A DNA stretch of 64,000 nucleotides, from the NCBI RefSeq assembly GCF_032854445.1, contig NW_027018127.1, positions 1 to 64,000 of the forward strand, read 5' to 3'. Both the position numbers and the translations under genes were made by a program. The DNA comes from Liolophura sinensis (Eukaryota > Mollusca > Polyplacophora > Chitonida > Chitonidae). The notes under the pieces are model-generated. The model searched no databases and was not told the DNA's origin. It was given only the letters and a program-made list of their open reading frames with translations. Shown piece after piece: positions 6,503 through 49,717 of the stretch (within the stretch, counting starts at the first letter, position 1; every line of letters starts with the position of its first letter).

Positions 6503-7174
6503 ATGGCTGAAAGCAAGGAAAATCGTGAAGAAGTTCTCACATGCCCGATATGTGTGCAAACATTCCGGAAACCAGTAACGTTACCTTGTCAGCACAGTTT
6601 TTGCAGAGAGTGTATTGCTGTGTATGCTGACAAGTCTAAACCTGGGCAGACAGATGAGGTCACCTGTAGCACGGGGAGTGAGGGTGTTCACCAGCTGATC
6701 TCATGCCCTGTATGTCGGACACCAACCAGTCTTGGGAGAGAAGGTGTGGCTGGTCTGCCTCCCAACTTTCACCTGGCAGAAATAGTGGAGAGGTTCTCTT
6801 CTGCTGTGAAGGTTGAGGATGACATCCCATATTGTTCTCTGTGTGGTGAGGATAATCAGGCTAAAGCTGTCAAGTTTTGTACCGACTGTTGTTTACTGTA
6901 TTGTAAAGATTGTCTGGCTTCTTTTCATCCCATAATGGGGGCTATGAAGCGTCACCGGCTGATTTCGTCCCAAGAGTACCTCTCTCTGGAAACCTCACAG
7001 CGACAGACCAGTGGCAGGGATGAACAATCAACTCAGCAAGCGTCATGTCCAAGACATGGTGAGCCATTCTGCTTGTACTGTGTACGGTGCCGGCTGGTGA
7101 TCTGTGTGGGGTGTGTGATTGACCATCCGGAACATGCTGTGCGGGATATACCATCTGCAGCGGAGAATGCCAAG
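6503..7174 (+). CDS. TRIM-A exon 1 (RING, B-box1, B-box2)
   Basis: Encodes residues 1-224, phase 0. RING ligands are C14, C17, C29, H31, C34, C37, C68 and C71, with a long 30-residue gap before the last CPVC pair. B-box1 ligands are C111, C114, C126, C129, C134, C137, H142 and H151. B-box2 has C182, H185, C193, C196, C201, C204, H208 and H212. The donor is caag/gtaatg. Reading through the donor would add only 14 residues before a stop. It differs from the TRIM-B exon at roughly 49 of 672 positions (24 residues). Confidence 0.93.
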
Positions 7175-10100
7175 GTAATGCGAAAAAGACATTCGTATAT
7201 TAGTCATCAACCACAGTGAATATTCTGAGTCATTAATCGTGAAGTCAATTCCAAACATAACAATTAATGCGACATACGAAAAACTAAGAAGTTGTGTAAG
7301 TTCAAAATTACTTTGAGATCATGCAAAGAGAAGTAGTAAACAGTTTTCAATGATGTTAGAAAGACGTTCTAAGCGAATGACTTAAATCACAATTTAAATC
7401 GTGTACCGCGCTAGTATATACGTCGATAATCAATATAAATGTCATGATTTGGAACGGTATAATGACCCATAGTTTGTAATCTATAGTGAAGAATGGGGCT
7501 TTTTGTTCTGTACTGTAGTGAGTCGTTTTAAAGACGATCTTTTTAATGTAGCATTTTTTTTTCATTACAGCCAGCGGTCTTGAACAAGACTAGTGAACTG
7601 GAGAAAGTGCTACAAGAAACTAAAGAATCACTGTCAGGAGTTACGAGGCTGTACAATAAGATACAGGTTGGTAGTTTTGATGACACTTGGTCAAGTTGTG
7701 ATTTATTGCATACTTGGTGACTCATTTTTCTTATGAAAATTATAGCTACTCTCAGTGACACAGACGCGATATGCCCACCTCAGGCAACTCCAGTAGGTAC
7801 ATCATCGTCGATAATACGCTGTCATAATATCTATATTGTATATACGCACTCCACATATGTGATGGGGGCCGGCCCCGATAGCACAGTTGGTCGAACGTCC
7901 ACTTCTTGAGCGGTAGACCCTGGGTCAACTCACACCTAAGACTTTAAAAGAGGAAGTTGTAACTTCCTTTCTTGGGGTTCAGCATAAAGGCGATAGAGTA
8001 AGGACTGTTTGACCCATATCAGTATAATGGCTTGGGTGGGGCTGCTTACTTGCCTTCAGTAAGGCGTCTCAGTGAAGCAGCAATAGATAAAAGAGCGGTG
8101 AAAATCCGTCCTGCTATAAGGAGGCACATTATATGCACCCTAAGGACTCCTTGGTCATCATATGACTGAAAAATTGTGAGTACGACGTTAAACCCCAAGC
8201 ACTCACTCACTGATATGTGACGGGGCGACACCTGGGATTAATAGACGTCTCTTAATCCCAGGGTGACACTCTTGGTGTTTGAACCAACACAGCATGAAGG
8301 CTGCACCAGCTCACCCTGCTCAGAGCACCAATTGTGATATTGAACCAAGAACGTCTCTGAGTCGAAACATGTACACCGCTAGACTAAAGTGAAATCCCCT
8401 CCAGCCAGGAAGTGCATTGTAGATACAGTTGTGTGGTGCTTATATTCCACTCTGTTACACAGGCATGTATAATTTCTTGTACAGGCCTGTAATGGTGTGG
8501 ATGAGATAATAAACGTTCTTTGTGTTTGTCAGGAAACCCAGGAACTTCACACTCAAGAGGTAGAAAGGGCTTATTGTGCAGCCTTGGAAGCCTTACAAGC
8601 CTGGAAACAACAGTCCTTAGATGGCATAAAAACTCGCTATTCACAGTGGAGTGTGGAGTGTAGCGCTATACTCCAACATTTCCAGCTACATTCCCAGGAA
8701 ATGGAGAGGATGGTACAGGCTTCCAAAGATTTATTAGCCTCACTGGACGTTGAGTTTTTACAGGTAAGTCAAACATGTACAATCTCTACCATTGGTTCAG
8801 CTGCCTCAGCTCCAGTTAAATACTTCAACTAACCACACAGGACAACCTGACAATAATTTGTCACCTTCAGAGAACGTACAAAGTTTTCTTACATGTATGG
8901 GCTGTGGATATCTTGGTTCTGACCGCTCATTTGTAAACAAATGTGATCTGTATGCTGTGTAAGTGCTCAGAGGCGTCTTATTTACCATTGTCACATTTTT
9001 GAACCTGTGACCGCCCTTTTACAATGACCATAATGAACAGTGATCAGTTGTTCAAATCCATCTCATGGTGCCAGATCTATTAAAGTTTAGGCCCAGAGTT
9101 CAACTGCTTCACTTTGTTCAGTGGTTCTCTCCGGTCGCTGTCTGTTTTTCTACTCATAAGCGATAAGACTAATAAACAACATGTTTTCTCTCCACAAACG
9201 CTTTTGTCTGACTGCCGCCAAAATATTGCCGTTGACCCAGGTCTTCAAATTTGGTACATCATGTGACCTTTATGCATGAGTGTGACGTGTATATTTTACG
9301 TAACTGGTACGGCGCACTGAGTGAAACGTGCACGAGGCTGGTTTAATCAACTATAACTTTGTACAGATTGCGTCATTGCAAATTTAAATTGTGATCCATC
9401 CATTGTATTTCACAATACAATAAACGCAAATCATATTTATCTTCATGATACCTTCAACATATAAATTATATATATATTTATTTGCTTATTTATAATAAGT
9501 ATAAACACATATCTATGATGTTGTTATTGTTTTGTTATTTATCAACATATTTTGAGAAATTAATATTAAATTGAAAATGTGAACTGAAGTGTTCCATTAT
9601 TTCAACATTCGTTACCCAGTGTTTATGAATTTGATACAGAATACAACACGACGGCAAAGCATTTAACCTACACAAGTAAACCAAATAAAATTCAGTATTA
9701 AACTTTTGTTAACCTAATTTTGTGTTTCAATTATTTTTTTTTTCGTACGTAATTCAAACTTTAATTACATTTAAACAGTTGAGCTCCCCACTTTTGTTGT
9801 CGTTTTGCTGATGCCTTAGGTTTCCAGCTCCTTTAGCTCGTCAGACAGAGTTTGGAAAAACTTTTGATCTCCCCGAACTCTCGCTTCCAGCAACGAGCTA
9901 CCTTCCCGGCTCACCGTCAGTGTGGTCGCTGTTTGACACCGTGCTTCTCTCATCGAAGCCTACCTGATAACAGCATCTTAGCTGAAATATGAAAGCAGCC
10001 CTGCAGATGTGTTATTTTATAGTGCTGTATTTTATAGTCGGAATTGTTTTCGAGAAATAAACGTATTCTTTTTATTATTCTTTCCTAGTCGTGAAGCACG

Positions 10101-13100
10101 TCCATAATATTTAGCATCGCATTTTAACACCCCCTGTAAGACACATTATGGTTTCGGCGAGTATTAGGTCACGCCCCTTTAGAACGTTCGGTTGGACGAA
10201 AACAACGTGTCAGGGAAAGTGGGGGCGTTTCTTGCTGTTAATCTTTACCGCAATGGCGTTTTTGTTATAATTACGAAAACATTTTGCTGCTACCAAGGTA
10301 ATAGAATAGAAATAATGTTCGCGTCAGGGTATTCTAACGGTAGTTTTACATCAAATCAATGTGGAAGAGTTTACAAATTTTAGGTCTCAGGCTTCGTCTC
10401 CGGCCTAAAATATAAACTCTTTCACATCGATTTGATGTAAAACTACCATTAGACTACCCTGACGCGAACATTATTTTTTAATTAAAAAAGAGTACGTTGT
10501 TTGATGTTTTTCGAAATACGAATACGAACAGTAATGAAGTCCTTATCAGTGTTTGAAAACATAAATTAGCCAATGTACAAAAGGTATATAGACAACCATG
10601 TCTCAGTTGATGTCCCTCGGGCTCTGCCCAGTTTCCTCCAACCCCAATGCTGAATGCCATCATATAAGAGAAATATTTTGAACACCACGTAAAACACCAA
10701 TCAAGCAAACCATCATGTTATGGCTGTATATACTGTCCCGATTTTCATGCATCCAGATGCGTTTTTCAGCCCAAAACAGTTGATTTTAGGAAGTTCAGAC
10801 CCCTCGGCGATAAGCCATTAACACAATGGCTACTTTCACAAGCTTGTAACACACAAAATTTCACAGCGTTTACTGTGTTTGAGATATTTGTTTGTTTACG
10901 ATTTTAGTCATCATCCTTGTTTTATGCACAAGTATACTTCATTGAAGGATAAATTTTACTATAGGCTATCATTTTCATAAACATTTTGTGAAAGGGAGTA
11001 CTAAGAGAAAGACCAGAATTAAGCCATTTCTTTATTTTCCTAATATCGTTGGTTTATATCCCACTCTTTAGAAGACTTTTACCCTGGTCTTCTGATTTAT
11101 AGTCCACTATGTATCTTCTCCCCACAGCCGTTACGGTAAGGGGAGATAACTCTAGTGTATTTCACTATCATAAAACTTTTTGCCATTATACTTGTGAAAT
11201 TGACAAAGGACTGCTTCTCTTACAGAAGTACCAAATTAAATCATTATCACAACTGAGTATTTATACAACAACTAACTTCAAGTTGGTTACTGTTTTACTT
11301 GTACTCGGTGGAACAAATCATTTCATTTTCAACTAAAATTGGGTGATCGGGAAATCTCTGGAGGAAAAATTACACTGTAACAAGCTCCATAGAATTTATT
11401 ACACCGGAATTCAGAGGTGATTTTGACTATGTTATTGACTAGGGAGTGGTCTAATTGTTTAAGGGAAAAGCCAAGGGCCCCTGTGTACTATAGGGGAGCT
11501 AAGACATTTCATTTATACCTGCGTTTTTGTGACATGTTGTGGTGAAAGTATACCCCAATTCTTCCAAAATTTGGGACAGATATCAGTAGTGTTGAAAGTA
11601 GAATATTACATTTCTTAACCAGCGCTTTGGAAAAGTAAAGATATAAGTATGTTGTTGATGAGATGGTCATGTAAGAAAAAAGAAACTCAATAATTCTGCC
11701 AGGATTACATATATATTGGCTAAAATGAGCAGACCAGGTGACCCAGATTTTAGAAGAAATAGTGTAGGTAAAGAATCTTTGTTTCTGTTATCATCTTTAC
11801 ATGAATTTATATGTGTTTTCAATTCTCTTTGTTGACAGGGTTCCACGGACTTCACCAAAACGTATGTATAAATGTGTTATACCTCTCTAGGTTTGTTATA
11901 CATGTGCAAGTGACTATTGTCAGCAGATGTGTTTCTGTAACACTAAGTACCAACACTGTACTTGTCCAAAACATGACCCAGGTGTATATCTAGTGTTCAA
12001 ACAAACATTTGCTCAGACAAATGAGATCTACATCTGAGTACATCATGACATTTTAATAACTGTGTGATACACAGGTTTACTACACAATATTATTGTGTCT
12101 CTTTGTTTCCTCTCCTCCTCTCACAGAATTGATGACCAGCTGAATGAGATAAGAGCAGATCTGGAGAAACATGAGGTCAGCAGACAGAAGCTTCTAGATT
12201 CTGTACAACATGACCACGTTGTCCCTAGACAGGTGACTGTAAAAGAGACAGTGAAAGAACGTCAGGACTTAGAAGCAGCGGTCGGTGGGCAACCCCTATG
12301 TGTTACAAGTAGGTTGTTACATGTATAAAAGGTATACATTAAGGTGTGCTCAGAGGACAAAAACGACTGTAGGGTTTACATTAGTATGTGCATCAAAGAT
12401 ACAGACATAAAGTGGAGAAGGTGCACAGTTGTGTGCGTTCAAAACACGCGGTGGAGTGTGAAGAAAACAAACCGACATGAGCTGTAATGCAGCAGGGCGC
12501 ACCCAGAAAATGAACAGTATTCCAAGAGTAACAAAAGTGAGAAGAGTTTACAAAAAGCACAGATAGTGTGAGGTGTACATTAGGGTGTGAACAAAACACA
12601 AACTTAGGTCCGGCATTAATTACTGTGTCCATGTAAGTCACAAACTAATCTGAGGTATGCATTAGGGTGAGCAAAACAGATACAAACTAATGTGAGGTAT
12701 GCAATAGGGTGGGCAAAACAGATACAAACTAATGTGAGGTATGCATTAGTGTGGGCAAAAGAAAAATACAAACTAATGCGAGGTATACAGTAAGGTGTGC
12801 AGATAGGATATAAACTAATGTGAGTTATACAGTAGGGTGTGCACGGAAGACTCAAACTAATATAGAGACATAAAATAAGGTATGGTACTTGTAAAGTGTA
12901 CACTGGGCTCAGAAGTCGAAAGGAAATCAGTAGGCTGTCCTGAGAAATTAAAAGCCAATGCAAGCTACTTATAGCATGATTTGCTCAGAAATAAGAAAAA
13001 AAATAAAATAAGTGTATTCAACAATATGTTATTTTCTTCAAAAAAGGAAAGCACATTGCAGAGTGTACAGTTAGAACAGGACAGATGGTAGTGTATCCCT

Positions 13101-13872
13101 CGGTGTCTGGGTGATATTTACCTCGTGTTCAAATAAACAAGTGCACTGTTAAAACAGGACATGTGGCAATGCACGGCATGTTTGCAAATCAGCAGGTGTA
13201 CTGTTAATACAGAACAGATAACATATTGTACAACTGAGTGTCTGAGTGATATTTACCTCATGATTGTGTACAAATCAGCAGGTGTACTGTTAATACAGAC
13301 CAGATAACATAGTGTACAACTGAGTGTCTGAGTGATGTTTACCTCGTGATTGTGTACAAATCAGCAGGTGTACTGTTAATACAGAACAGATTACATAGTG
13401 TACAACTGAGTGTCTGAGAGATGTTTACCTCATGATTGTGTACAAATCAGCAGGTTTACTGTTAATACAGAACAGATTACATAGTGTACAGCTGAGTGTC
13501 TGAGTGATGTTTACCGCGTGATTGTGTACAAATCAGTAGGTGTGCTGTTAATACAGAACAGATAACATAGTGTACCACTGAGTGTCTGAGTGATGTTAAC
13601 CTCATGACTGTGTACAAATCAGGAAATATATATAGTAAATAATACATAGGTTTGTATACATGTAGGTGCGTAGGTGTACAATGCATGCACGTATAAAGAC
13701 AAAACACTGCATGGCAAGTTAGCAGAAAGACAGGAATGGTTGAGCGTGAGTGAGTGCTTGGGGTTTAACGTCGTACTCAATGGTTGAGCGTGAATGACAT
13801 AATATGAAGCTGGTATTGCATGAGAAAGTACTGAGGAAAAGGGAATAGAATGTACACCTGAAGCCAGAGCTA

Positions 13873-13965
<93 letters not shown>

Positions 13966-15236
13966 ATGTCTCTTATACCAGCTTAATATTATGCAGTTCC
14001 TCGTATCTGTTTTTGTTTATTATTATTATTATTATTAATATGAAAGGGTAGAGATTCCATGTATGTAAGCCCATATATTTATAATTGTTGATCTACATTT
14101 ATTTCATCACTTAATACACATTTTTCTTTCTTAGTCTTGAAATATTTACCTGCAGAAAATATTTACTGTGAATCCAGCAATTGATTACTACTAATAATTC
14201 TGATAGATTAAATAGTCTTTGCGGTTTTGTGGCAATGAACAGGCCTACTACAGCTTCAGAGTGAATTGTGTGTTCAAATGTGCCATAACTGACAACTAAA
14301 ACCAATGACTGGATAGAGGAAGGTATTATTCTTGTTGTAGGTGATAAGTTTCGAACAAATTAGATCACTAAAATTCTGTATTTTAACCCAGTATTTAGCC
14401 TATGTCTTAGGGCTACCCGTCATTTAGTGACGGATCCTTGTCGAAGCTCAACTCTTTCATACTGGCTGAAAAATGACAGAGATCTCTGTATAAATAAAAT
14501 TCGTGTCAGCAATATATGTCATTTTATTCCAAGAGATTGTGTTGAGAATTAAAAACACAGTATGTGTACAGGTATTTAAACCTCAGTCTTACAGCGTGTG
14601 TTTATGGTTTGCTGTTGTTTATGCTGTTTCTGTTGTGTTTTTACAGAGCCGACGCTGAGATTCACAGAGACAGACGACAGTGAGCTGAGAATCACTGACA
14701 GCGGCTGTGTGGTGAAGGGTGAGGACTTGTCCTGGGAGTGGAGGTGGTGGAGAGCTGTGACAGACGGGCGTTACCAGACGGGCAGGTACTACTGGGAGCT
14801 ACACATCACCTGTTCACATGACTGTTACAGTTACTGTTACTGTCGTGTAGGAGTCACACAGGAGAGCTGTGTCGTGAGTGAGGAGACAGACCCTGGCCGT
14901 AACTCCTGGTACATTGAGATGGACTACAGTGGTGATGAGGTCTGGTGTTGTAGTCACAGTGGTGGTGGTGAGATCAAACCTGGCTATCTACAGGACAGAC
15001 GTTACACACGACCTCATCACCTGGGTGTGTACCTGGACTGTGATGACCACACACTGACAGTCCTGGACTGTGACAACAACCAGGTAATGTACACTGACAG
15101 TGATGTTATCGTCACAGAGCCTCTCGTGCCATCGGTTGGGTTTGGTGTCTGGTTTGGATCTGTGTCTGCTCGTCTGATAACGGGTGACTCTGCAACTCTG
15201 CCTCCAGTTCTCTGTGATATGATAAGCACTTCCTGA
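6503..15236 (+). CDS. TRIM-A: RING / B-box1 / B-box2 / coiled-coil / PRY-SPRY protein (six exons, 597 aa)
   Basis: Coding exons are 6503-7174, 7571-7666, 8533-8763, 11839-11861, 12127-12308 and 14647-15236, all with GT-AG introns. They join in frame to 1794 nt ending at TGA. Domains: C3HC4 RING at about residues 14-71, B-box1 111-151, B-box2 182-212, coiled coil about 225-400, PRY-SPRY about 403-590. By family knowledge such proteins are cytosolic E3 ubiquitin ligases: the RING binds the E2, the coiled coil dimerises, and SPRY binds the target. Two B-boxes plus SPRY recall the TRIM25/finTRIM layout; orthology is not claimed. The start is the first ATG after a splice acceptor at 6481-6484, so a 5' UTR exon lies upstream. 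A near copy (TRIM-B) lies 34.8 kb downstream on the same strand. No frame break is seen. An antiviral or immune role is inferred, not shown. Confidence 0.93.
7571..7666 (+). CDS. TRIM-A exon 2 (96-nt coiled-coil exon)
   Basis: Preceded by a T-rich tract and cattacag, followed by cag/gttggt. It encodes residues 225-256, a Glu/Lys/Leu-rich helical stretch (SELEKVLQETKES and on). Exactly 96 nt, phase 0, the length of the first coiled-coil exon in vertebrate TRIM genes. One synonymous change separates it from the TRIM-B exon, so the protein is identical here. Confidence 0.93.
7868..8212 (+). mobile_element. SINE family 2, full length, TRIM-A intron 2
   Basis: tRNA-like head (ggccccgatagcacagttgg; later gggtcaactc as B box), 345 bp, 3' end gtacgacgttaaaccccaag followed by (actc)n. 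Flanked by atatgtgatgggg (7855-7867) and atatgtgacgggg (8213-8225). Shared with TRIM-B. Confidence 0.85.
8533..8763 (+). CDS. TRIM-A exon 3 (231-nt coiled-coil exon)
   Basis: Acceptor gtttgtcag, donor cag/gtaagt. Encodes residues 257-333, rich in Glu, Gln and Leu with heptad-like spacing, forming the main coiled coil. The 231-nt phase-0 size is the standard second coiled-coil exon of TRIM genes. About nine nucleotides and five residues differ from TRIM-B. Confidence 0.93.
9183..10086. other. A-specific intron 3 segment
   Basis: Lies between flanks shared with TRIM-B (aagactaataaacaac and agtcgtgaagcacgtcc), but B has unrelated sequence at this site. AT-rich; no coding or terminal repeats recognised. 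Confidence 0.6.
10311..10475 (+). repeat. Long intronic inverted repeat (hairpin), TRIM-A intron 3
   Basis: Arms 10311-10384 and 10404-10475 pair with about 66 of 74 positions matching, around a loop of about 19 bases. It would be transcribed within the TRIM-A pre-mRNA and fold into a strong stem. Could be a foldback element remnant. Confidence 0.85.
10595..10710 (+). mobile_element. SINE family 1 relic in TRIM-A intron 3
   Basis: Degenerate copy of the 3' half, ending gtaaaacaccaatcaagcaa. Shared with TRIM-B at 45245-45360, so older than the duplication. Confidence 0.6.
11839..11861 (+). CDS. TRIM-A exon 4 (23-nt micro-exon)
   Basis: The acceptor is ttgacag and the donor is gtatgt. It encodes G-S-T-D-F-T-K plus two bases of the next Thr codon. 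Vertebrate TRIM genes carry a 23-nt exon at the same place, often also reading DF. It is too short for ORF finders; it is supported by the frame it makes with exons 3 and 5 and by an identical exon in TRIM-B. Confidence 0.88.
12127..12308 (+). CDS. TRIM-A exon 5 (linker helix)
   Basis: Acceptor ctctcacag after a pyrimidine tract; donor acaa/gtaggt. It completes Thr341, encodes residues 342-401 (IDDQLNEIRADLEKH and on), and gives the first base of Lys402. Charged and helical, it bridges the coiled coil and SPRY. Choosing this donor is what restores frame into the SPRY exon; reading on would stop 17 bases later. Three residues differ from TRIM-B. Confidence 0.88.
12560..12960. repeat. 42-bp minisatellite, TRIM-A intron 5
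   Basis: Units of about 42 bp with caaactaatgtgaggtatgc and attagggtgggcaaaac. Because 42 is divisible by three, a minus-strand frame stays open; this is not a gene. Confidence 0.8.
13110..13620. repeat. 86-bp VNTR, TRIM-A intron 5
   Basis: Between five and six units of about 86 bp (caggtgtactgttaatacag, then gtgtctgagtgatgtttacc). TRIM-B has only about two. Confidence 0.8.
13738..13785 (-). mobile_element. SINE family 2 tail fragment, TRIM-A intron 5
   Basis: gtgagtgagtgcttggggtt then taacgtcgtactcaa is the reverse complement of the family 2 tail. The B counterpart is at 48218-48265 with extra gagt units. Confidence 0.6.
13877..13961. repeat. (TA)n microsatellite, TRIM-A intron 5
   Basis: About 84 bases of alternating TA, against about 30 at 48354-48384 in TRIM-B. 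Confidence 0.95.
14647..15236 (+). CDS. TRIM-A exon 6 (PRY-SPRY/B30.2)
   Basis: Acceptor tttttacag. Encodes residues 403-597 and the stop TGA. Visible SPRY landmarks: the PRY start (PTLRFTE), TGRYYWE at about 446-452 with the family-conserved Trp at W451, LGVYLDCDDHTL in the middle, and the closing GDSATLPPVL. The first half is unusually rich in Cys, Ser and Tyr. Compared with TRIM-B there are about 25 substitutions and three in-frame indels, nearly all before the LGVYLD segment. Confidence 0.93.
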
Positions 15237-17649
15237 CCATCGGGTAATTATTAATTACATCTTTTCCATCATATTATAATTTGTTGAAATACACAGTTTT
15301 GTTAAGTCTTTTTAAAAAAAAAATGAAAAAAAAATGACCAGTTTGTAGATGTTTTAGTTAATGTGAGCAGTGTGGCTAATTCAGTATGTATAGCTTGTTC
15401 TGCAAAGTGGTCAGTGATCTGTCACAAGCTTACAGCTTGGTGTAGTTATACACAGTCTGTTTCACTTGTCCTGAACATCAATGTCAGGTTTCTTCCAGAC
15501 AAAATACATGTAGATAATGGCTGGGTAGTTTTATTTTTAGTGATGGTGACTTGTAAATCAGCATAATCAGGAGTGTCACTGAGCAAAACAGGTGAGAGTT
15601 TGTACTTGACAATACGTGTAGTCAACATGTTACATGTAGTAGGATGTACATTTGTGACAAAAAACCTTGTAGAAATAAATAACCAATAGTCTGTATATAT
15701 AGAATAGTGCACTTACCACGTAACTAACCACAAAATTGGGTTACACTTTGTCAAAACAGCTCTTTTTTGGTGCACTGGTCTCTTGTACCTAACTTCGTGG
15801 AAACTTGCCGCAGTATTTCGCTCCACTGGAAAAAAAAAGGTTTTGCCTCTCACAGAACGTTAGTACCTCAATATCGGATCTAACTACCAAAAACAGGCTT
15901 TTTCCAAATAACTTTCTCAGAAAGTGGCAAAGGGTATAGAAAATTATTTTTCTTACCATGATCGGGCCAGTACGTCATAACCCATGAATGGTTTCAGATT
16001 AAATCGTAAAAACGGACCAGATCAGATTGACGTTGTTGTTGCAGCGCGTTACACAAGATAATTCTGTTTTGAATTCCGGTCGTCTCTATGTTGTCTGCAT
16101 GATGAGGTTAATCCTATGCTGAACAAGAACTGTTTTTAGGATGCCATTGTCTTGATAACATTGTCAGCTGTAAGTTTCTCCTTTCCTAAATGTTTCTCTA
16201 TTTGTCAACTTTGCTTATTCAAACTTTGGCGTTCACAACAGTTTGTCATGATCTGGACATAGTTTGAGTATGTGACATGTTTACAAGAGTAAATATTTTA
16301 AGCTGTTTATCAGATTTTTATCTTCAGTATAAACACATTGACATTTACTGGACTATTTGTGTTTATTGAATACCTCTACCACATTATTATGTAAACATCT
16401 AACATATTTTCTGTAATAAACAGTTACGTCTTAGTTACTAAACATTTTTTTATGAATAAATACCCGTTGGCATTAATCCAAACTGCAATGAAAATGTGTT
16501 TAGAAAACACTTTTTTTAGTGTGTACTGTACATCTTTAACCTTTTCAGCCGCTGAAATTTTTACTGGAATCTGTGCATACATTTATTAGGAAAATGATGC
16601 TAAAATGATTTGTTTGTGTCACTCAGTATGTAAACTTCATAAAAATGTGCCAATTATTTCTCTACACTCCGTAGTTCTCTAACAGTATTTCAGATATATG
16701 TATTGTGGATATAACCTGTTTTACTTTAAATGACTTCTATATGTAAGTGCTGTGATATGACCTGTGACATGTATTTTTGTATTCACTGTCCTCTAAGCAT
16801 TATGCCCACATTATGATATTTTCTAATTTCTAAATACATGTATATACATTGATTATGTTGCATTTTATTTAGAATATAGTTTTTTTTGCTTGCATATGCT
16901 TAGCTTGATGAAATAATTAAAGTATCATGGTTGCGAATTTGATTACCAATCCAAAAAATAAAAAGTAAATAAGTACTTGTCCGTAATATAAATTGAGATA
17001 TATATTCTACACCCTGACATATCTACTTGCAAGTTTTTCACAGCTGGCTTGTACTGTGTGTGCTGTACAGAATGGATTGATAGTTTCATTTTAGGTTTAA
17101 CCTCCAAGACCACCTTTCATCTCCAACTTGATGTGCAGCTCAAATCATGTATCCAAAGTGCTTCTGTTGTCATGTGTTACTTTGTCTGGGTGTTTTTGAG
17201 TTCCGAAACATGCATTTTCAGTAAAACACACAACAATGTGTCAGTGTAAAATCAGCTGGCAAATCATCTTTGATCTCTGAACTTTGCAAATGTGAAAGTC
17301 TGGTTTGTACCTGATTTACTTTAGGATGCAGCTTCATCCCCAGTACTGTTGCCATGACAACCTGCGGTCAAGATTATGAGGTCACTGCACCATTTCATCA
17401 GTTTCCTGTTATTTTGATGTCAGATGTTGTTGTATTCGTGTATGATTCAGTGGTATTTTGCCATTCTCTGTCTTTTGTCTTCCAACTTCTGAAACCTATG
17501 ATAATAAAAAATAAGTCATTGTGTAATGTGTAATCGTCGTTTGAATGGTTGAATTACAGTGTCAATAAAATGTAGTAATACACACTTAAATCATGCACAA
17601 TATGTAGCATTTTTACACAGTTTTACGTACACCAATTTCACAATCAACA
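15237..17649. other. 3' UTR and 3' flank of TRIM-A
   Basis: No other gene seen. About 16400-16780 is missing in block B. The 66-codon frame at 17049 is conserved as DNA but has no gene features. Confidence 0.55.
15674..15679 (+). terminator. Candidate poly(A) signal of TRIM-A
   Basis: AATAAA about 440 bases after the stop codon, conserved in TRIM-B at 50157-50162. Other AATAAA-like motifs follow further on, so the true cleavage site is uncertain. Confidence 0.35.
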
Positions 17650-18150
17650 TGATCAAGTTACCTGATGTGTATCTTGTCAGTAGTGCTGGGTGATTTCCTC
17701 TCTGTGATACTTTGTTCCTATGTTACCTGATGTGTATCTTTTGAGCTGTGATAGGTTTCCTGTCTCTCTGATACGTTGTGCGAATATTATTTGATGTGTG
17801 TATCTTCTGCTGTGATGGGTTTCCTGTCTCTATGATACCTTGTGCGAATATTATTTGATGTGTGTCTTCTCAGGTGGGGTGGGCTTCCTGACACATGGTC
17901 CACATATGACCTGATGAGTAACATCTCAGGAGAGTTGGTTTTCCCCTGTCAAATAATACCGGGTCCATACATTATACATGATGTGTAACTTCTCAGGAGA
18001 GCTGGTTTTCCCCTCTCCCTAATACCGGGTCCACACATTACCTGATGTGTGGCTTCTCAGGAGGACTGGTTTTCCTCTCTCTCTAATAACGGGTCGAAAC
18101 ATTATTTGATGTGTAACATCTCAGGAGAGATGGTTTTCACCTCTCAGGCT
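17650..18150. repeat. 65-bp array, block A 3' flank
   Basis: About eight units of 58-66 bp: cctgatgtgtatcttctcag, gtgtgatgggtttcctctct, gataccttgtccacatatta. Each unit carries a pyrimidine-rich tract ending in ctcag/g, resembling a splice acceptor. Confidence 0.85.
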
Positions 18151-18174
18151 TTCAGCATATTGGAGGCTGAGTTT

Positions 18175-18330
18175 TATAGTCGCTAATATAAATAAGGCCA
18201 AGTCCAGCTCATGCTGGCTTACTCTCCAGTCGCACATGTACTGAGAATAGTCTACCAGCAACCTGCGGATGGTCGTATCAATGAAACATTATTGAGTGCA
18301 GTGTAAAACGCCAACCAAATAAATGTGTAT
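18175..18330 (+). mobile_element. SINE family 1 relic, block A 3' flank
   Basis: Contains aagtccagctcatgctggct and ends gtaaaacgccaaccaaataa, with the central ccgggctctgcc part deleted. It directly follows the 65-bp array. Confidence 0.65.
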
Positions 18331-21300
18331 AAAGAAGGCTCCATATTAACTCTCTACCGGTGAGGTTCTAAAAGCACCAAGGCTGGGCTTCAAACTCTTG
18401 TGATGGGCAGAATCCAGCATTTTAACTCACGCCGTGACTGATAGTGCATGTACTGCCTCACTTTTGCGGGGAAGCGATGACTTAGTTAATCAACGACTCT
18501 TTCCTTGTGTAGGAAGATATGATTTCTTGATGGAATGAAGACATGATGGGCGCCAGGTGACGAGGTCTTGAGGTAAACAGCTACAAAATCAGGGAAAACG
18601 AAGTTTGCTAAGTATTAATGTTACATAGAAGTTGTGAATCAAGATATTAAGAGTTAAAGCGTGGGGAATGAAATGCATACAGCGCCCCTGGCGGTGGGTG
18701 TATGTATAACACAACACCGCAGCTCGTAAAAATCATTACTTTCAAAATTTTATCAATTAGCGCAGGGTGGGGCATAACGGACTAGCTATCTCTGGAGGAT
18801 CAGGTGCGAGTCTCGGTAGTTCCATGGGTAGTGTACAAACCATCATGTTTTAATAACCTACGTAATCTCTTATTATTAACATAGCCAGGAACTTCACAAG
18901 TCGACGATTGCGGCAGTAGGGGTAAAATGCTCCCCAGAGAATCCCGTTTTGCTCCAGACGTTCGTTTTGGTCCCATGAGATATTTTACACGTAACTATGC
19001 ACCGGCATTACGCTTTTTACTGTTTTAGTTTAAATGAGGTAAACAAACGATTTGTAACACACATCGTGTAATATTTAGAGCCAAGAATGATATAAATAAC
19101 AGCACAACAGCCATGGTAGACTTACACATACATACGGGTGTGAAAAAGGCACAAGTATCATTTTTTCACTTCTATATACAGTGTTTTCCATAAACTTTTT
19201 CAAATTTAATTAGCCGAAGAATTTTAGCTAAAAAGCATACTTGATATTAACGTGTAAGACAAAGGTTGGTAGAGAGAATTAGAAAGACTTCAACCGACAG
19301 TAAATTCAAATTGATGGTTTACAAGAGTTGCCTTCATTTACATGTACGAAATCGTACAAGTGTGAGGAAGGACACCTGAACTCCATCCCAGGCTGGAGTT
19401 GAAAAGCGTTTACTTGTCTCATTTGTGTAACTTTGGTTTTAACCCATTACTATGTAGGCCAAAATAAATGTTGAACTTTGATTACATTTTTTTTAGTTAA
19501 AAACTAAAATATATAATAAGCCCTGATATGAATTCCAATTGTGCCATGGCATTCATATATGATTCATTATTAATATGATGCATTTTGCTGAAAAAGGTAT
19601 ATTTTCAACACTCACACATATATTAAATAAAAATAAAAAGTCGGGGCAAGTAGATAATTTAAAGATATCTGTAGATACTTAAAATATGTATATCTGTCTA
19701 AATAGCAATATGCAACTGTAAATGAATTATACAAGGACCACGTGATCAGCAAGGTCAGAGGTTGCAGTACCCTAGGTGGCTATGAACTCCTTTGTTAACT
19801 GTGACAAATGCAGATATTTCAGATGCTTACCTTTTCTTTTATTTTCTTTTATCTGTACTGTTTTTTGTTAAATAAAATGTTTCTATACTGTGGTTAAGCA
19901 GCTTGCCATGCACTAATATAAAATAGAAGCGACAATGAGGACTGTTCCATAGTTTATTAGGGTTCCAATGGTTGAACACATTACACTTGTTAAGTCTTTG
20001 TTGTTCGTTTTAGTACATGCAGTGAATGTGGAAGAGTTTAAATTTTAGAACCAGAAGTCAAATTAGAATATCTGCGTCCCACGTTTATAATATTCATGAA
20101 ATGTTGTGTTTTCTTGTGGTCTTCTCGGTATTTTGGTGTATAGTTTATGACATGTTTTCAGCTTGGATAATTTTACAATTTTAATGAGGAAAATAATATA
20201 TAAAGGGCTGGAAGTTTAATTTGTTATCGTAATCTACCATTTCAGGCTCCTGTGAAAGTGTACATGATACACGCTTTATACGTTTGAACCATCATACATC
20301 ATATACGTTTATATAAATAATGGGTTTCTCCATGTTTCTTCTGATTTTGCTATGATTGTTGTTTTAAAATTGGTATCTATTCTTTAATAGGCCAGAGAGT
20401 GTTTACCTAAATTACGGTATTTAATTGATCATTTGAGGTAACGGAGAAAAATGGACGGTGACTGTGGTCCGTTTTGCCCCAGGTGGTTAATTTTCTTGTG
20501 CAACTTTGCAAGGAAAGACACCCACAAAATCTATGAGAACTAGGATAAAACTAGGCTTACCATAGATCACAGGTCATCAAAATTTTGCCCGGCCTCTTGG
20601 GAAACTATTTGTCGACATTTATCGTCCATAGTAACGTTTATGTGCTGCAAATAGCTATATCTGTCATTAGAAATGACCATAAAAACGGTACGACAGAGGG
20701 CATTAAATTTGACATAAAAGTCGGTTTTGTCCCGTGGGTCCGTTATGTCCGAAACACATGCTTATAGAACCCACGTCACTTTTCCAAAACTGACGCTATC
20801 ACAAACGATATATCATGATTAGATATTTACAGATTACAATTACAGATATATCAGAACGTTATTTAAATACACTGGTACATAATAACGGAGAAAGCTATTG
20901 GACTCATTACAAATTTGACGAGAACACATTCACGTTCGATTTCAACAACAACAACATCTACAGTTCTCATCAATAAATATCTCTTCCGTGTTATGAAGAC
21001 GACGGAAGTTAGTTTCATTTATGTTTAAAGGGACCTTACATTGAAGGGGAAATCTGTCGAGATTCGAGATTGTGACACGAGTCCTGTGTCGTCCGTCTTA
21101 AAGGATAAACGATTTTGCTGTCAACAAACTGCCTGCAGTAATAATGTTCATGTCAAGAATATGGTTCTATCCTCAATGCATTATAGCCATCTAATTGTTA
21201 CAGCTGGGGTGCCTTAACTCCTTGACTGGGACATGCATGTTTGCTGTGTTCACATGAATGGGTTGGCAGCTGGTAAATGGGGATATGCGGAGCTGTATGT

Positions 21301-21639
21301 TTTTGTAATGCTTGTTCAATTCTTGGCACAGGCTACTGTTCCTGGCTGTGAAGAATGTAGATATGTATAAAGAGATTTGGTTGTTTTTCTGTCATGCTTT
21401 GAAACTATTTTGACCTGACATTTCACAGATTTGGACAGAAGGAGAGATCATAATGGAGACTTACAACATGTGTGTACGCGCAATTTTTGAGTCGTACGTT
21501 CGAGTCTGTTGCGTCTATACACGCTAATTTCAGTGGAATTCCTACTATGCCTATGTTGTTAGGATTGGTAGCTCCCAGTCTTGAGGTTATTGAACTGAAG
21601 TTACTACTTTGAGGATTGAAACGTTTCCCTTCGCCTTTT
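18331..21639. other. Conserved non-coding flank, block A
   Basis: Closely matches 56491-58640 and 58861-59560. No coding, RNA gene or intact transposon recognised. Confidence 0.5.
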
Positions 21640-22104
21640 TCTCACGGTCAGAAAATCTAATTTGTTACCGGTTAGTTTGGTTAAGTTTGACCCTAGCAAA
21701 GAGCTAGTCTTGCAGAACGTGCATATGGACGACGATTATGTAGTGTTTTTTTATGAAGAGGTCTAAAACTGTTCAGTTTTGTTAGCAGGAGTTAAAGTTT
21801 CCCCTGATTGCAATACCGGGATCTGCTTTTTGTCTGGTAACTGCCTTCAAGACTGACGTCTATGTGCAGTTGTGGCGATCTTGATACGACTCTATTTTCT
21901 CTGCCTCATAAGAATACAATTCGTCCTGTTACCCATATGTCGTGTCTGCGTGTTCTACGTCGGTGTTTGTCTGCAACTGGGTATAATGCTAGCCTATTTT
22001 CTGGGCGTCGTTTTCAGAAGGGTGGTGCGTCGTACGCATTTCAGGCTCAGGTTCCAGGTGAAGTCATACAGATGTCAGGAGACAGGGCTAGGAGACAGGG
22101 ATAA
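21640..22104 (+). pseudogene. DIRS/integrase-like tyrosine recombinase relic, block A copy
   Basis: Same relic as at 59560-60032. The open part (21862-22104) starts MCSCGDLDTTLFSLP and holds GRRFQKGGASYAFQAQVPGEV, with the catalytic His and Arg replaced. The upstream part is out of frame near 21745. Confidence 0.6.
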
Positions 22105-22114
22105 TAGGGGGTGG

Positions 22115-22275
22115 TTGGTGGAAGGCACTTTATCTGTCCTGAAAAGAGCATTGGAAGGGATGGAAGTCGCTTTGTTTGATCTGAGAAGAGCATTGATTGG
22201 TATGGAAGCCACTTTGTCTGTCCTGGAAAGAGAATTGGGGGAATGGAAGCCGCTTTGTCTACCCTGGAAAAACCA
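22115..22275 (+). repeat. 48-bp repeat (16-codon period), block A
   Basis: Three degenerate units of ctttgtctgtcctggaaaga + gcattggaggaatggaagc. The period keeps one frame open (SVLKRALEGMEVALFDLRRA...), giving a Leu/Glu-rich 16-residue repeat. Confidence 0.6.
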
Positions 22276-27300: not shown

Positions 27301-27324
27301 TTTAAAAATAGTACTTACATCTGC

Positions 27325-29830: not shown

Positions 29831-29834
29831 AGTT

Positions 29835-31905: not shown

Positions 31906-31917
31906 CTGTGTTTAATA

Positions 31918-41343: not shown

Positions 41344-42015
41344 ATGGCTGAAAGCAAGGAAAATCGTGAAGAGGTTTTTGCATGCCCGATATGTGTGCAA
41401 ACATTCCGGAAACCAGTAACGTTACCTTGTCAGCACAGTTTTTGCAAGGAGTGCATTAGTGTGTATGCTGACAAGTCTAAACCTGAACAGACAGATGAGG
41501 TCTCCTGTAGCATGGGGAGTGAGGGTGTTCACCAGCTGATCTCATGCCCTGTATGTCGGACACCAACCAGTCTGGGGAGAGAAGGTGTGGCTGGTCTGCC
41601 CCCCAACTTTCATCTGACGGAGATAGTGGAGAGGTTCTCTTCTGCTGTGAAGGTTGACGATGACATCCTATATTGTTCCCTGTGTGAGGATGATAATCAG
41701 GCTAAAGCTGTCAAGTTTTGTACCGACTGTTGTTTACTGTATTGTAAAGACTGTCTGGCTTCTTGTCATCCCATGAGAGGCGCTATTAAACGTCACCGGC
41801 TGATTTCGTCTTTGGAGTACCTCTCACAGGAAACCCCACAGCGACAGACCAGCGGCTGGGATGAACAATCAACTCAGCAAGCGTCATGTGCGAGACATGG
41901 TGAGCCATTCTGCTTGTACTGTGTACGGTGCCGGCTGGTGATCTGTATGGGGTGTGTGGTTGACCATCCTGAACATGCAGTGCGGGATATACCATCTGCA
42001 GCGCAGAATGCCAAG
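41344..42015 (+). CDS. TRIM-B exon 1 (RING, B-box1, B-box2)
   Basis: Residues 1-224, phase 0, donor caag/gtaatg. All zinc ligands match TRIM-A in position. Replacements cluster around residues 12-13, 35-57, 105-116, 141-148 and 157-172, mostly between ligands. One change adds a Cys next to a B-box1 ligand (F141C). Confidence 0.92.
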
Positions 42016-45000
42016 GTAATGCGAAAAAGACATTCGTATATTAGTCAACAACCACAGTGAATATTCTGAGTCAATAATCGTGAAGTCAATTCCAAACATA
42101 ACGATTAATACGACATACGAAAAACTAAGAAGTTGTGTAAGTTCAAAATTACTTTGAGATCATGCAAAGAGAAGTAGTAAACAGTTTTCAATGATGTTAG
42201 AAAGACGCAAGGATGTTCTAAGCGAATGACTTAAATCACAATATAAATCGTGTACCGCGCTAGTATATAGGTCGATAATCAATATAAATGTCATGATTTT
42301 GAATGGTATAATGACCCATAGTTTGTAATCTATAGTGAAGAATGGGGCTTTTTGTCCTGTACTGTAGTGAGTCGTTTTTAAAGACGAACTTTTTAATGTA
42401 GCATTTTTTCCATTACAGCCAGCGGTCTTGAACAAGACTAGTGAACTGGAGAAAGTGCTACAAGAAACTAAAGAATCACTGTCAGGAGTTACGAGGTTGT
42501 ACAATAAGATACAGGTGGGTAGTTTTGATGACACTTTGTCATCTTGGTGATTTATTGCATACTTGGTGACTCATTTTTCTTATGAAAATTATAGCTACTC
42601 TCAGTGACACAGACGCGATATGCCCACCTCAGGCAACTCCAGTAGGTACATCATCGTCGATTATACGCTGTCATAATATCTATATTGTATATACGCACTC
42701 CACATATGTGATGGGGATCGGCCCCGATAGCACAGTTGGTCGAACGTCCACTTCTTGAGCAGTAGACCCTGGGTCAACTCACACCTAAGACTTTAAAAGA
42801 GGAAGTTGTAACTTCCTTTCTTGGGGTTCAGCATGAAGGCGATAGAGTAAGGACTGTTTGACCTGTATCAGTATAATGGCTTGGGTGGGGCTGCTTACTT
42901 GCCTTCGGTAAGGCGTCTCAGTGAAGCAGCAATAGATAAAAGAGCGGTGAAAATTCGTCCTGCAATAAAGAGGTACATTACATGCACCCTAAGGATTCCT
43001 CCGTCATCATATGACTGAAAAATTGTAAAGCACGACGTTAAACCCAAAGCGCTCACTCAGTGGTCTGTGATGGGGCAACACCTGGGATTAATAGACGTCT
43101 CTTAATCCCAGGGTGACACTCTTGGTGTTTGAACCAAACCACTGGTGATCTCCACAGCATAAAGGCTGCACCATCTCACCCTGCCTGGATGGTCTGGATG
43201 AGATAATAAACGTTCCTTTTGTTTGTCAGGAAACCCAGGAACTTCACACTCAAGAGGTAGAAAGGGCTTATTGTGAAGCCTTGGAAGCCTTACAAGCCTG
43301 GAAACAACAGTCCTTAGATGGCATAAAAACACGCTATTCACAGTGGGGTGTGGAGTGTAGCGCTATACTCAAACATTTCCAGCTACATTCCCAGGAAATG
43401 GAAAGGATGGTACAGGCTTCTAAAGATTTATTAGCCTCAATGGACATCGAGTTTTTACAGGTAAGTCAAACATGTACAATCTCTACCATTGGTTCAGCTG
43501 CCTCAGCTCCAGTTAAATACTTCAACCAACCACACAGGACAACCTGACAATAATTTGTCACCTTCAGAGAACGTACAAAGTTTTCTTACATGTATGGGCT
43601 GTGGATATCTTGGTTCTGACCGCTCATTTGTAAACAAATGTGATCTATATGCTGTGTAAGTACTCAGAGGCGTCTTATTTACCATTGTGACATTTTGAAC
43701 CTGTGACCGCCCTTTTACAATGACCATAATGAACAGTGATCAGGTGTTCAAATCCATCTCATGGTGCCAGATCTATTAAAGTTTAGGCCCAGAGTTCAAC
43801 TGCTTCACTTTGTTCAGTGGCTCTCTCCGGTCGCTGTCTGTTTTTCTACTCATAAGCGATAAGACTAATAAACAACTCCAGAATTCTATCTATGTAATAT
43901 TCTATTACCCTTCGATTCCTTTTTATTACATACAACGCACTGCTTGGCAAGTGCACATTATCTTAGATACCCCCCATCATGAGACAGAAGCGTTTGACGT
44001 CTGGACGGTTCTATTGTAGTTCTATGGGTGGATAGAGGTTGTTGTGTACATTAAATAAAGCAGACGACAAATATAAACAAAGAAACAAAATGGATGTTTT
44101 TTCAGTCGGAGCGAACGTTTATTTTAAAGAAGAAAAGTATCAGGTTACAGATAATTTAAAGCCCATTGGGACGTTTGAATGCTACACAATAAGAGATAAT
44201 AATGCTTTTACAAAAATTTTTTTTTTCACATACGGACCTGATAATTCTTCTTGCGAGTTTTCTTTCACCGGCCTCTCCTAAACGTCCCAGTTGACCACAA
44301 CCCATATGGCAATGGCAATCAACCAATGGATCTAAAAAAGATCAGATCCATGATGTCTGATATTTCCCGCGATGCAAAACTTAGCCACCGGTACACGAAT
44401 CACTGCGTCCAGGCTACGACAGCCACAGTACTTGCTGATGACGGGGTTTCTGTGATGGACGTTATGTCTGTGACAGGCCACCGCAATGAATCCAGTGTAC
44501 GGAGTTATGTCACCAAACCGTCCGTTTCAAAACGCTGTGAAATCAGCATTATCCTGCATGCTTCAAGTGTGTTATCAGAAAATGGTGAAAGTGAAAATGC
44601 CGTTGAGTGAAAATACTCCCATGTCAGTCACGCCACTCTCAGTGCAAATGCCCGACGCTGTCGACTATAATGTTACACGTAACAGTAGCAATACCATCCA
44701 ATACTAGTCGTGAAGCACGTCCGTAATATATTTAATATAATATATTTAAATATTTAATATTTAGCATCGCATTTTAACACCCCATGTAAAACACATTATG
44801 GTTTCGGCGAGTATTAGGTCACGCCCCTTTAGAACGTTCGGTTGGACGAAAACAACGTGTCAGGGAAAGTGGGGGCGTTTCTTGCTGTTAATCTATACCA
44901 CAATGGGGTTTTTGTTATAATTACGAAAACAATTTGCTGCTACCAAGGTAATAGAATAGAAATAATGTTCGCGTCAGGGTATTCTAACGGTAGTTTTACA

Positions 45001-48352: not shown

Positions 48353-48387
<35 letters not shown>

Positions 48388-49717
48388 ATGTCTCTTATAC
48401 CAGCTTAATATTATGCAGTTCCTCGTATCTGTTTTTGTTTATTATTATTATTATTAATATGAAAGGGTAGAGATTCCATGTATGTAAGCCCATATATTTA
48501 TAATTGTTGATCTACATTTATTTCATCACTTAATATACATTTTTCTTTCTTAGTCTTGAAAAATTTAACTGCAGAAAATATTTACTGTGAATCCAGCAAT
48601 TGATTACTCCTAATAATTCTGATAGATTAAATAGTCTTTGCGGTTTTGTGGCAATGAAAGTCACTGGGTAAGTTATTTGTGATGAGTTACCTCCCTTACT
48701 ACACAAACGGCTTCGGTACTCCACGAACGACAACAGGCCTACTACAGCTTCAGATTGAATTGTGTGTTCAAATGTGCCATAACTGACAACTAAAACCAAT
48801 GACTGGATAGAGGAAGGTATTATTCTCGTTGTAGGTGATAAGTTTCGAACAAATTAGATCACTAAAAGTCTGTATTTTAACCCAGTATTTAGCCTATGTC
48901 TTAGGGCTACCCGTCATTTAGTGACGGATCCTTGTCGAAGTTCAACTCTTTCATACTGGCTGAAAATGACAGAGATCTGTGTATAAATAAAATTCGTGTC
49001 AGCAATATATGTCATTTTATTCCAAGAAATTGTGTTGAGAATTAAAAATACAGTATGTGTACATGTATTTAAACTTCAGTCTTACAGCGTGTGTTTATGG
49101 TTTGCTGTTGTTTATGCTGCTTCTGTTGTGTGTTTGCAGAGCCGACGCTGAGATTCACAGAGACAGACAACAGTGGGCTGACAATCACTGACAGCGGCTC
49201 TGTGGTAAAGGCTGAGGACTTGTCCTGGGGGTGGAGGAGAGCTGTGACAGACGGGCATTACCAGACGGGCAGGTACTACTGCGAGATACACACCACCTGT
49301 TCACCTGGCTGTTACTGTCATGTAGGAGTGACACAGGAGAGCTGTGGTGTGAGTGGGAAGACAGACCCTGGGCGTAACTCCTGGTACATTGAGATGGTGT
49401 ACAGTGGTGATAAGGTCAGGTGTTTTAGTCACAGTGGTGGTGGTGAGATCAAACCTGGCTATCTACAGTACAGACGTTACACACGACCTCATCACCTGGG
49501 TGTGTACCTGGACTGTGATGACCACACACTGACAGTCCTGGACTGTGACAACAACCAGGTAATGTACACTGTCAGTGATGTTATCGTCACAGAGCCTCTC
49601 GTGCCATGGGTTGAGTTTGGTGTCTGGTTTGGATCTGGATCTGTGTCTGCTCGTCTGATAACGGGTGACTCTGCAACTCTGCCTCCAGTTCTCTGTGATA
49701 TGATAAGCACTTCCTGA
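41344..49717 (+). CDS. TRIM-B: RING / B-box1 / B-box2 / coiled-coil / PRY-SPRY protein (six exons, 593 aa)
   Basis: Coding exons are 41344-42015, 42419-42514, 43230-43460, 46493-46515, 46776-46957 and 49140-49717: 1782 nt, in frame to TGA. Same architecture and splice sites as TRIM-A, of which it is a tandem duplicate. All RING, B-box1 and B-box2 ligands are kept. Differences concentrate in exon 1 (24 residues) and SPRY (about 25 residues plus three indels). The most striking is loss of the SPRY-conserved Trp in the YYWE motif, here YYCE (C449). No stop or frameshift is seen, so I call it functional, perhaps with altered target binding. Its introns hold a SINE, a Crypton-like fragment, a hairpin and VNTRs. 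A hAT element and a Harbinger derivative lie 3' of it. Ligase activity is inferred from family membership. Confidence 0.92.
42419..42514 (+). CDS. TRIM-B exon 2 (96-nt coiled-coil exon)
   Basis: Acceptor ccattacag, donor cag/gtgggt. The protein sequence is identical to the TRIM-A exon. Confidence 0.92.
42717..43061 (+). mobile_element. SINE family 2, full length, TRIM-B intron 2
   Basis: Counterpart of 7868-8212. The right target duplication is partly mutated (tctgtgatgggg). Inserted before the segmental duplication. Confidence 0.85.
43230..43460 (+). CDS. TRIM-B exon 3 (231-nt coiled-coil exon)
   Basis: Acceptor gtttgtcag, donor cag/gtaagt. Residues 257-333, phase 0. Five residue changes from TRIM-A, all compatible with a helix. 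Confidence 0.92.
44236..44610 (+). pseudogene. Crypton-like tyrosine recombinase fragment in TRIM-B intron 3
   Basis: The frame reads DHNPYGNGNQPMDLKKI, then YTNHCVQATTATVL and VTGHRNESSVRSYV. That order (N-P-x-G, NHxxRATT, tGHR, SY) matches the C-terminal catalytic part of Crypton-type eukaryotic tyrosine recombinases. The Arg expected in the HxxR box is Gln here (HCVQ), so this copy is probably dead. The 5' part of the domain is missing or in another frame (44090-44281, unrecognised). The surrounding 0.83 kb is absent from TRIM-A. It is intronic, same strand as the gene. Confidence 0.65.
44961..45125 (+). repeat. Long intronic inverted repeat (hairpin), TRIM-B intron 3
   Basis: Same hairpin as in TRIM-A (arms 44961-45034 and 45054-45125), with no difference seen across arms and loop. 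Confidence 0.85.
45245..45360 (+). mobile_element. SINE family 1 relic in TRIM-B intron 3
   Basis: Counterpart of the copy at 10595-10710. Confidence 0.6.
46493..46515 (+). CDS. TRIM-B exon 4 (23-nt micro-exon)
   Basis: Same 23 bases as TRIM-A exon 4 (GSTDFTK), with acceptor ttgacag and donor gtatgt. Confidence 0.88.
46776..46957 (+). CDS. TRIM-B exon 5 (linker helix)
   Basis: Acceptor ctctcacag, donor acaa/gtaggt. 182 nt like TRIM-A exon 5. Three replacements in the second half of the exon. Confidence 0.88.
47215..47650. repeat. 42-bp minisatellite, TRIM-B intron 5
   Basis: As in TRIM-A, with one extra unit of about 42 bp (near 47365-47405). Confidence 0.8.
47795..48012. repeat. 86-bp VNTR, TRIM-B intron 5 (short allele)
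   Basis: About two units of the repeat seen at 13110-13620, followed by B-specific sequence to about 48090. Confidence 0.75.
48218..48265 (-). mobile_element. SINE family 2 tail fragment, TRIM-B intron 5
   Basis: Counterpart of 13738-13785; longer (gagt)n run. Confidence 0.6.
48354..48384. repeat. (TA)n microsatellite, TRIM-B intron 5
   Basis: Short version of 13877-13961. Confidence 0.95.
49140..49717 (+). CDS. TRIM-B exon 6 (PRY-SPRY/B30.2)
   Basis: Acceptor tgtttgcag; residues 403-593 and TGA. Relative to TRIM-A it lacks two residues in the WEWRWW stretch and four in the Cys/Tyr loop after motif 1, and gains Gly-Ser near the C-terminal FGS. The motif-1 Trp codon TGG is TGC (49280-49282). 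The second half is nearly unchanged. Confidence 0.92.

Follow-up and report, generated by a model that had tools for sequence, protein, structure and literature searches.

A hypervariable, probably exchanged SPRY exon and an apparently chimeric first exon in a tandem TRIM-like gene pair of the chiton Liolophura sinensis

In MHC class I/II and venom gene families, introns are more conserved than exons, and the duplicates are under diversifying selection with conversion. The same excess of exon over intron divergence, in unrelated proteins, is found in two tandem gene copies, A and B, of the chiton Liolophura sinensis, each with one RING/B-box exon and one SPRY exon. Both lie in a stretch of 64,000 nucleotides (positions 1–64000 of contig C188; hereafter the window), and they appear from their DNA to belong to a TRIM-like gene family (RING/B-box/SPRY) that has some sixty members or more, most of them on one chromosome-length contig. 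The excess had two separate causes within this one gene pair, and the explanation that we consider probable is that: (i) the SPRY cassette is exchanged across the family, with diversifying selection acting on its recognition face, and (ii) exon 1, which is under purifying selection, belongs in B to an older head joined to a recent body.

Comparable modes of evolution are described from fish. Parts of the report by Howe et al. 2016 (PMC4852459) describe the zebrafish NLR-B30.2 genes as a large family with the majority of members on one chromosome arm, where conversion acts differently on NACHT and B30.2, the ratio of nonsynonymous (dN) to synonymous (dS) divergence is high in B30.2, and conversion shorter than the exon is proposed to recombine variants. 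As far as those parts go, the same pair of processes, exchange and selection on a recognition exon, would operate in the chiton, but the partner there is NACHT and the host a fish, whereas here it is RING/B-box in a mollusc; no NACHT is present among the Pfam matches of the upstream exon. For the finTRIM genes of teleosts, sections of the study by van der Aa et al. 2009 (PMC2657112) place positive selection on B30.2 mostly at variable loops, using site models with a recombination point in B30.2, and report three further positively selected sites just upstream of the RING. The chiton genes resemble finTRIM in being TRIM-like genes whose SPRY part (B30.2 in finTRIM) is apparently under positive selection. 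They differ from this teleost family in that the SPRY exon is near linkage equilibrium, the overall dN/dS of exon 1 is about 0.3, and the SPRY-exon proteins have no PRY match in Pfam at E 1e-3 (a genome search with PF13765, the PRY profile, returned nothing, but its controls were silent as well and it is uninformative). The mode itself is known; what is new is the lineage, and the gene combination is a different one. Our searches of an open-access library listed no report of this kind on mollusc or chiton TRIM genes. It would be an instance of innate repertoire-building by exon swapping and a varied recognition surface, otherwise best known from fish; if true, a lophotrochozoan has independently reached the fish scheme, with a fixed RING/B-box effector half and an interchangeable, hypervariable SPRY half maintained as a family-wide pool. 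With dozens of intact SPRY exons in one genome and the hypervariable residues mapped codon by codon, it would then offer a clean system in which to study the ligands of SPRY receptors in molluscs and the joint part of conversion and selection in making a germline repertoire.

Unit A spans approximately 5903–25272 and unit B 40763–64000 of the window, and a third unit lies beyond it on the same contig (matches at C188:64441–66500). The exons compared below are:

6503–7174, plus strand: copy A exon 1, with a RING and two B-box-like zinc domains (Pfam zf-RING_UBOX 6.9e-11, zf-B_box 1.5e-8, ANCHR-like_BBOX 1.3e-7) and a donor GT directly 3'
7571–7666, plus strand: copy A putative exon 2, 96 bp, from splice signals and an open frame
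8533–8763, plus strand: copy A putative exon 3, 231 bp, in the TRIM coiled-coil position, from splice signals and paralogue alignment
14647–15236, plus strand: copy A SPRY exon, the hypervariable cassette (Pfam SPRY 3.5e-7)
41344–42015, plus strand: copy B exon 1 (RING, PF13445, 2.5e-10; PF00643, PF22586)
42419–42514, plus strand: copy B putative exon 2, from splice signals
43230–43460, plus strand: copy B putative exon 3, its 3' border taken from the alignment to A
49140–49717, plus strand: copy B SPRY exon (Pfam SPRY 2.2e-5)

The RING is N-terminal in both copies (PF13445, 6.9e-11 in A and 2.5e-10 in B), and the B-box zinc fingers PF00643 and PF22586 score above cut-off in A and B. The SPRY match (PF00622) reaches 30.8 bits in A and 25.0 bits in B, the latter just under the curated cut-off of 26.3, and profile searches of the PDB match TRIM21 and other SPRY proteins. 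Exon 3 (231 bp), an open frame, has no Pfam match. An acceptor for this exon at AG 8484 was dropped, several paralogues lacking that AG, and the acceptor is now at 8532; the divergence and segment tables used slightly other borders (exon 1 to 7175, exon 2 7573–7668, exon 3 8486–8763). Comparison with two paralogues revealed no clear small exons 4 and 5, the intron showing mostly repeats.

Searches of the genome (609,464,459 bases in 632 contigs) gave at least 158 matches for exon 1 and 126 for the SPRY exon. These totals count fragments and members of distant families, and most of the strong matches are on contig C2. Sixty exon-1 and sixty SPRY sequences, A and B among them, were picked as near full length and aligned; 57 genes have both, the pairing of C76:34k with the SPRY exon at C76:20.6k being doubtful. 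Gapped codons were left out pairwise, so that length variation of the first hypervariable stretch is uncounted. Of the SPRY exons, 59/60 are in frame and free of stops, and 7/60 first exons contain a frameshift or stop.

Between A and B, exon 1 shows 49 differences in 224 codons (49/673 alignment columns) and the SPRY exon 29/572 plus three indels (6, 12 and 6 bases); the corresponding values are 11/393 (2.8%) for intron 1, 1/96 for exon 2, 12/396 (3.0%) for intron 5, and 14/384 (3.6%) for the 3' untranslated region (3'UTR). These counts bear out those made by eye in the original prediction for exon 1 (49/672), intron 1 (about 3%) and exon 2 (one change), and come close to its figure for the SPRY exon (about 31 substitutions and three indels in about 580). 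Its claim that exons diverge more than introns holds for exon 1 (Fisher p = 0.002 against intron 1), whereas for the SPRY exon, measured against its own flanks, the pair alone is suggestive (p = 0.13) and the excess becomes strong once other paralogues join. Both exons where it had placed the peaks, RING/B-box and SPRY, are indeed high, but the limits of the high tracts do not coincide with those of the exons, because the non-coding 5' flank of exon 1 (45/393, 11.5%) exceeds exon 1 itself, divergence is raised in a stretch of intron 2 as well (20/240, 8.3%), and the SPRY exon has few differences towards its end (2/110 and 2/136). The pair serves as a caution that an exon more divergent than an intron may have different causes in one gene pair.

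Diversifying selection, originally suggested for both exons, is supported for the SPRY exon at the family level, with a dN/dS of about 2. All 36 close pairs having two SPRY exons (36/36) show a dN/dS of 1.3–4.5, with dN at 0.06–0.11 and an intron-like dS at 0.02–0.07, and the ratio exceeds 1 in 1,542/1,596 gene pairs, which are non-independent (dS is zero in 2/1,596). Among 17 disjoint pairs with flank divergence below 5%, differences occupy 490/7128 nonsynonymous sites (N; 0.069), 76/2337 synonymous sites (S; 0.032) and 312/12835 flank positions (0.024), with N exceeding S at p = 7e-12 and the flank at p = 2e-50; in 30 disjoint pairs, the proportions of nonsynonymous (pN) and synonymous (pS) differences are 0.084 and 0.048, and the flank stands at 0.068. 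Across the 57 genes, bins with a median exon-1 dS anywhere between 0.013 and 0.61 all have a median SPRY dS of 0.028–0.053 and dN of 0.076–0.112; the SPRY medians lie near 0.10 for dN and near 0.05 for dS at an exon 1 dS of 0.13 as at one of 0.5. Diversifying selection by point mutation alone, with both exons fast and no exchange between copies, would accommodate the raised ratio in every close pair and the fact that dS there lies near flank divergence. We nevertheless regard it as improbable: the dN/dS of exon 1 is 0.33 and its flank as old as the exon, SPRY dS is flat against exon-1 dS (rho 0.04), and pN does not behave like steady mutation, as it jumps from 0.004 at a flank divergence below 1% (3 pairs) to 0.084 at 1–2% (2 pairs) and then rises slowly to 0.12. 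Even less probable, in our judgment, is that the low SPRY dS reflects constraint on synonymous sites through RNA structure or codon use, rather than homogenization, with the hypervariable residues alone saturating. Synonymous change is very low in the conserved SPRY codons, as such constraint would have it, but in close pairs the SPRY pS of 0.032 is not below the flank value of 0.024, so that synonymous sites are not slow and merely fail to diverge in old pairs; the G+C content at third codon positions is also ordinary (SPRY 0.553, exon 1 0.476).

Amino-acid heterozygosity is 0.6 or more at fourteen codons in a codon map of the 60 SPRY exons, and the hypervariable positions of copy A on that map are:

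14733–14750, plus strand: hypervariable stretch 1, length-variable, just before the conserved RAVTDGRYQTGRYYWE core
14838–14846, plus strand: alternating hypervariable codons 14838 and 14844
14883–14885, plus strand: hypervariable codon
14916–14924, plus strand: hypervariable codons 14916 and 14922, aligned by HMMER with a W-x-W pair of mouse TRIM21
14943–14945, plus strand: hypervariable codon
14994–14996, plus strand: hypervariable codon
15138–15152, plus strand: alternating hypervariable codons 15138, 15144 and 15150 (15132 is variable, just under 0.6)

Variability is periodic by every second codon (lag 2 r = 0.43 and lag 4 r = 0.25, 0/500 permutations each; lag 1 r = 0.00, lag 3 near zero), an alternation that can be read as the pattern of one exposed face of β-strands. 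The hypervariable residues 90 and 92 of the A SPRY exon are those aligned with the W-x-W of TRIM21, the PDB chain in question being, we presume, the mouse protein, and this gives the exon a likeness to the TRIM21 SPRY (PRYSPRY) domain. One report (PMC6722209) counts W381 and W383 of human TRIM21 among the key residues in contact with Fc, and, judging from the spacing, residues 90 and 92 may occupy their positions. TRIM21 differs in being a single gene, and the chiton sequence resembles SPRY domains of known structure only weakly (best E 2.4e-4, PDB profile search). Heterozygosity at hypervariable codons is 0.465, 0.445 and 0.079 by codon position. Mutational targeting of these codons was considered and set aside, since their quiet third positions are no evidence for it: variable exon 1 codons have the same low third-position transversion rate (0.077 vs 0.074). 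As a separate and unexplained observation, C is rare at positions 1 and 2 of hypervariable SPRY codons (4.9%, compared with 20.7% in conserved codons). A ColabFold prediction on A and B had a mean confidence score (pLDDT) of 44, too poor for a fold search; its strands 63–68, 86–93, 98–103 and 162–167 hold several hypervariable residues and were given no weight.

Exchange of the SPRY exon among family members is likely, although not proved. Two SPRY exons from separate contigs, counting unplaced contigs, resemble each other as much (dN 0.100, dS 0.047; 491 pairs) as two from a single contig (0.106 and 0.052; 1279 pairs). C12_3854, on another large contig, has flanks 24–35% from A and a SPRY dS to A of 0.041, and against the 59 other SPRY exons its median dS is 0.050 with flanks 25–36% apart. 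The ratio of divergence in far pairs (150 sampled) to that in near pairs is 1.0–1.6 inside the SPRY exon and about 3–11 over the exon 1 region. One pair, C2_2916 and C2_16, likely records a recent exchange, with a SPRY pN of 0.014 and pS of 0.015 but flank differences of 13/379 and 26/369. Linkage points in the same direction: r2 averages 0.029 over pairs of SPRY sites (0.134 within 5 bp, 0.024–0.028 beyond 15 bp), compared with averages of 0.092 for exon 1 and 0.152 for the 3'UTR, and the four-gamete fraction is 0.54 as against 0.35 in exon 1. Distances in exon 1 correlate with those in its flank at 0.81 and with those in the SPRY exon at 0.09 (reached by 5/500 permutations), and of 28 strong exon-1 splits the flank tree recovers 15, the intron 1 tree 13, the intron 5 tree 7, and the SPRY and 3'UTR trees 3 each. 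Conversion from paralogues, which the original prediction had offered as the other explanation, is thereby supported at the family level for the SPRY exon, whose ancestry is largely decoupled from that of the gene's 5' half.

Purifying selection acts on exon 1. By the Nei–Gojobori method (NG86), dN between A and B is 0.052 and dS 0.161 (dN/dS 0.33; N vs S p = 0.0002), and only 6/1,596 gene pairs exceed a dN/dS of 1. Diversifying selection on this exon was rejected on this ratio, well below 1, and on a flank that is equally divergent, and the proposed pressure on the E2-facing RING/B-box part is unsupported. Synonymous sites differ more than intron 1 (0.028; p = 1e-6) and are compatible with the upstream flank (0.115; p = 0.32). 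A change-point fit on 5990–9178 places a single border at 7017, inside exon 1, and delimits the following tract:

5990–7016, plus strand: copy A tract of old ancestry relative to B, covering the 5' flank and most of exon 1 (107/1004 differences, compared with 71/1991 downstream to 9178)

The head of B, its 5' flank included, is 97% identical to C76:34k and at most 90% to other near-full-length matches among those listed; trees of exon 1 and of the flank unite B and C76:34k as a clade (support 0.999 and 1.0, respectively), and intron 1 groups B with C2_3878 (0.77). The head of A is nearest to C2:3822k, 3878k, 3789k and C76:112k, the last of which has an A-type head yet lies closer to B in exon 3 and the later part of intron 2. 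Because the flank is as old as the exon, the change point falls within the exon and the B head is shared, among the matches listed, with C76:34k alone, conversion or recombination with an older lineage is supported for exon 1. B, together with one other copy, thus appears to carry an older head on a recently shared body, as a recombination or conversion chimera, and C76:112k likewise appears to be a chimera. Elsewhere in the genome, C3:25382897–25392815 holds a tandem array of exon-1 fragments, with at least 27 matches, many RING-sized, within 10 kb and several spaced 583–586 bp.

Such mosaics could also be mis-joins, if the unplaced contigs C188 and C76 were alternative haplotypes of C2:3.79–3.89 Mb. 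The C188 spacer matches C76 and C2:3.81–3.87 Mb at 89–97% identity; if the genome is the published Liolophura japonica assembly, the animal was heterozygous (1.24%) and HiFi coverage 14x, according to part of its description (PMC11068029); and both exon-1 copies on C76 (34k and 112k) are frameshifted, whereas B is intact although it has its head in common with 34k; the frameshifts could be errors in the assembly of this unplaced contig. Against this, A and B lie on one contig, and the SPRY pattern extends across dozens of genes on the chromosome-length contig C2, as well as C4 and C12, and we hold an assembly or haplotype artefact to be quite unlikely.

The divergence contrasts, dN/dS ratios, loss of linkage and discordant trees of this family would be accounted for if short ectopic exchanges within it, by gene conversion or unequal recombination, gave the parts of a gene different ancestries. 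In exon 1, an old head lineage and 5' flank would have been fused in B to a recent body, from intron 1 to intron 2, common to the local cluster. The SPRY cassette and adjoining DNA would be exchanged family-wide, also between large contigs, which would keep synonymous sites alike (dS about 0.05) whatever the age of a pair, and diversifying selection would keep the amino acids different (dN about 0.10) at every other position of a putative ligand-binding face. The SPRY exon would then exceed the introns in divergence in close pairs and fall below them in distant pairs. The exchange is presumably germline gene conversion, and the selective agent may be pathogen recognition by the SPRY face.

Several observations weigh against this explanation. 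In A and B alone, the SPRY dN/dS of 1.7 is not significant (N vs S p = 0.26). SPRY dS rises with divergence of its own intron 5 (rho 0.32, up to 0.11–0.135), most of the rise coming from three outlier genes (without them rho is 0.12 and dS 0.037–0.053), and SPRY distances are not wholly decoupled, correlating with intron 5 (rho 0.42) and weakly with exon 1 (0.09). The far/near ratio in the SPRY flanks is 1.1–4.8, falling close to 1 directly upstream of the exon and over some of the UTR, and the 3'UTR is as discordant with exon 1 as the SPRY exon is (3/28 splits each), which argues that the whole 3' end has its own history. On account of the intron 5 correlation, the 3'UTR discordance and the flank ratios, exchange is centered on the SPRY exon and not confined to it. 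The trend of r2 with distance within that exon is not significant (57/300), linkage can equally be lost when hypervariable codons mutate repeatedly, and a run-length test is positive in far pairs (200 sampled; 0/200) and not in near pairs (17/200), but positive in exon 1 too. No close donor for B emerged from searches with its head and its variable SPRY part, in which 40 of 103 and 40 of 92 candidates were scored; no such DNA search was made with the A SPRY exon. Finally, exon 1 and the SPRY exon were assigned to one gene from DNA alone, by position and strand. A more far-reaching possibility, to which we give little credence, is that a dedicated, exon-centered process of diversification, in the germline and perhaps somatic, acts on the SPRY exon and continually shuffles recognition residues among some sixty intracellular E3-ligase receptors of a mollusc; this would be a functional analogue of bird antibody diversification by gene conversion.

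The window contains further elements. Unit B has an insert of about 3.4 kb at 51717–55077 that is missing in A (empty site at A 16945–16949) and encodes, on the minus strand, a 760-amino-acid open frame with DUF4371 (PF14291, 1.4e-9); it is a transposon-like insertion, probably later than the duplication. The introns are unrelated in sequence between 43877–44754 in B and 9181–10104 in A, and an open frame of the B intron carries a tyrosine-recombinase domain (PF00589, 7.3e-7) at 44245–44610. Repeat arrays in the TRIM intron at 12330–12884 and 13058–13630 recur in the introns of both distant paralogues used for comparison, and a large degenerate minisatellite array with long open frames occupies 32759–34455.

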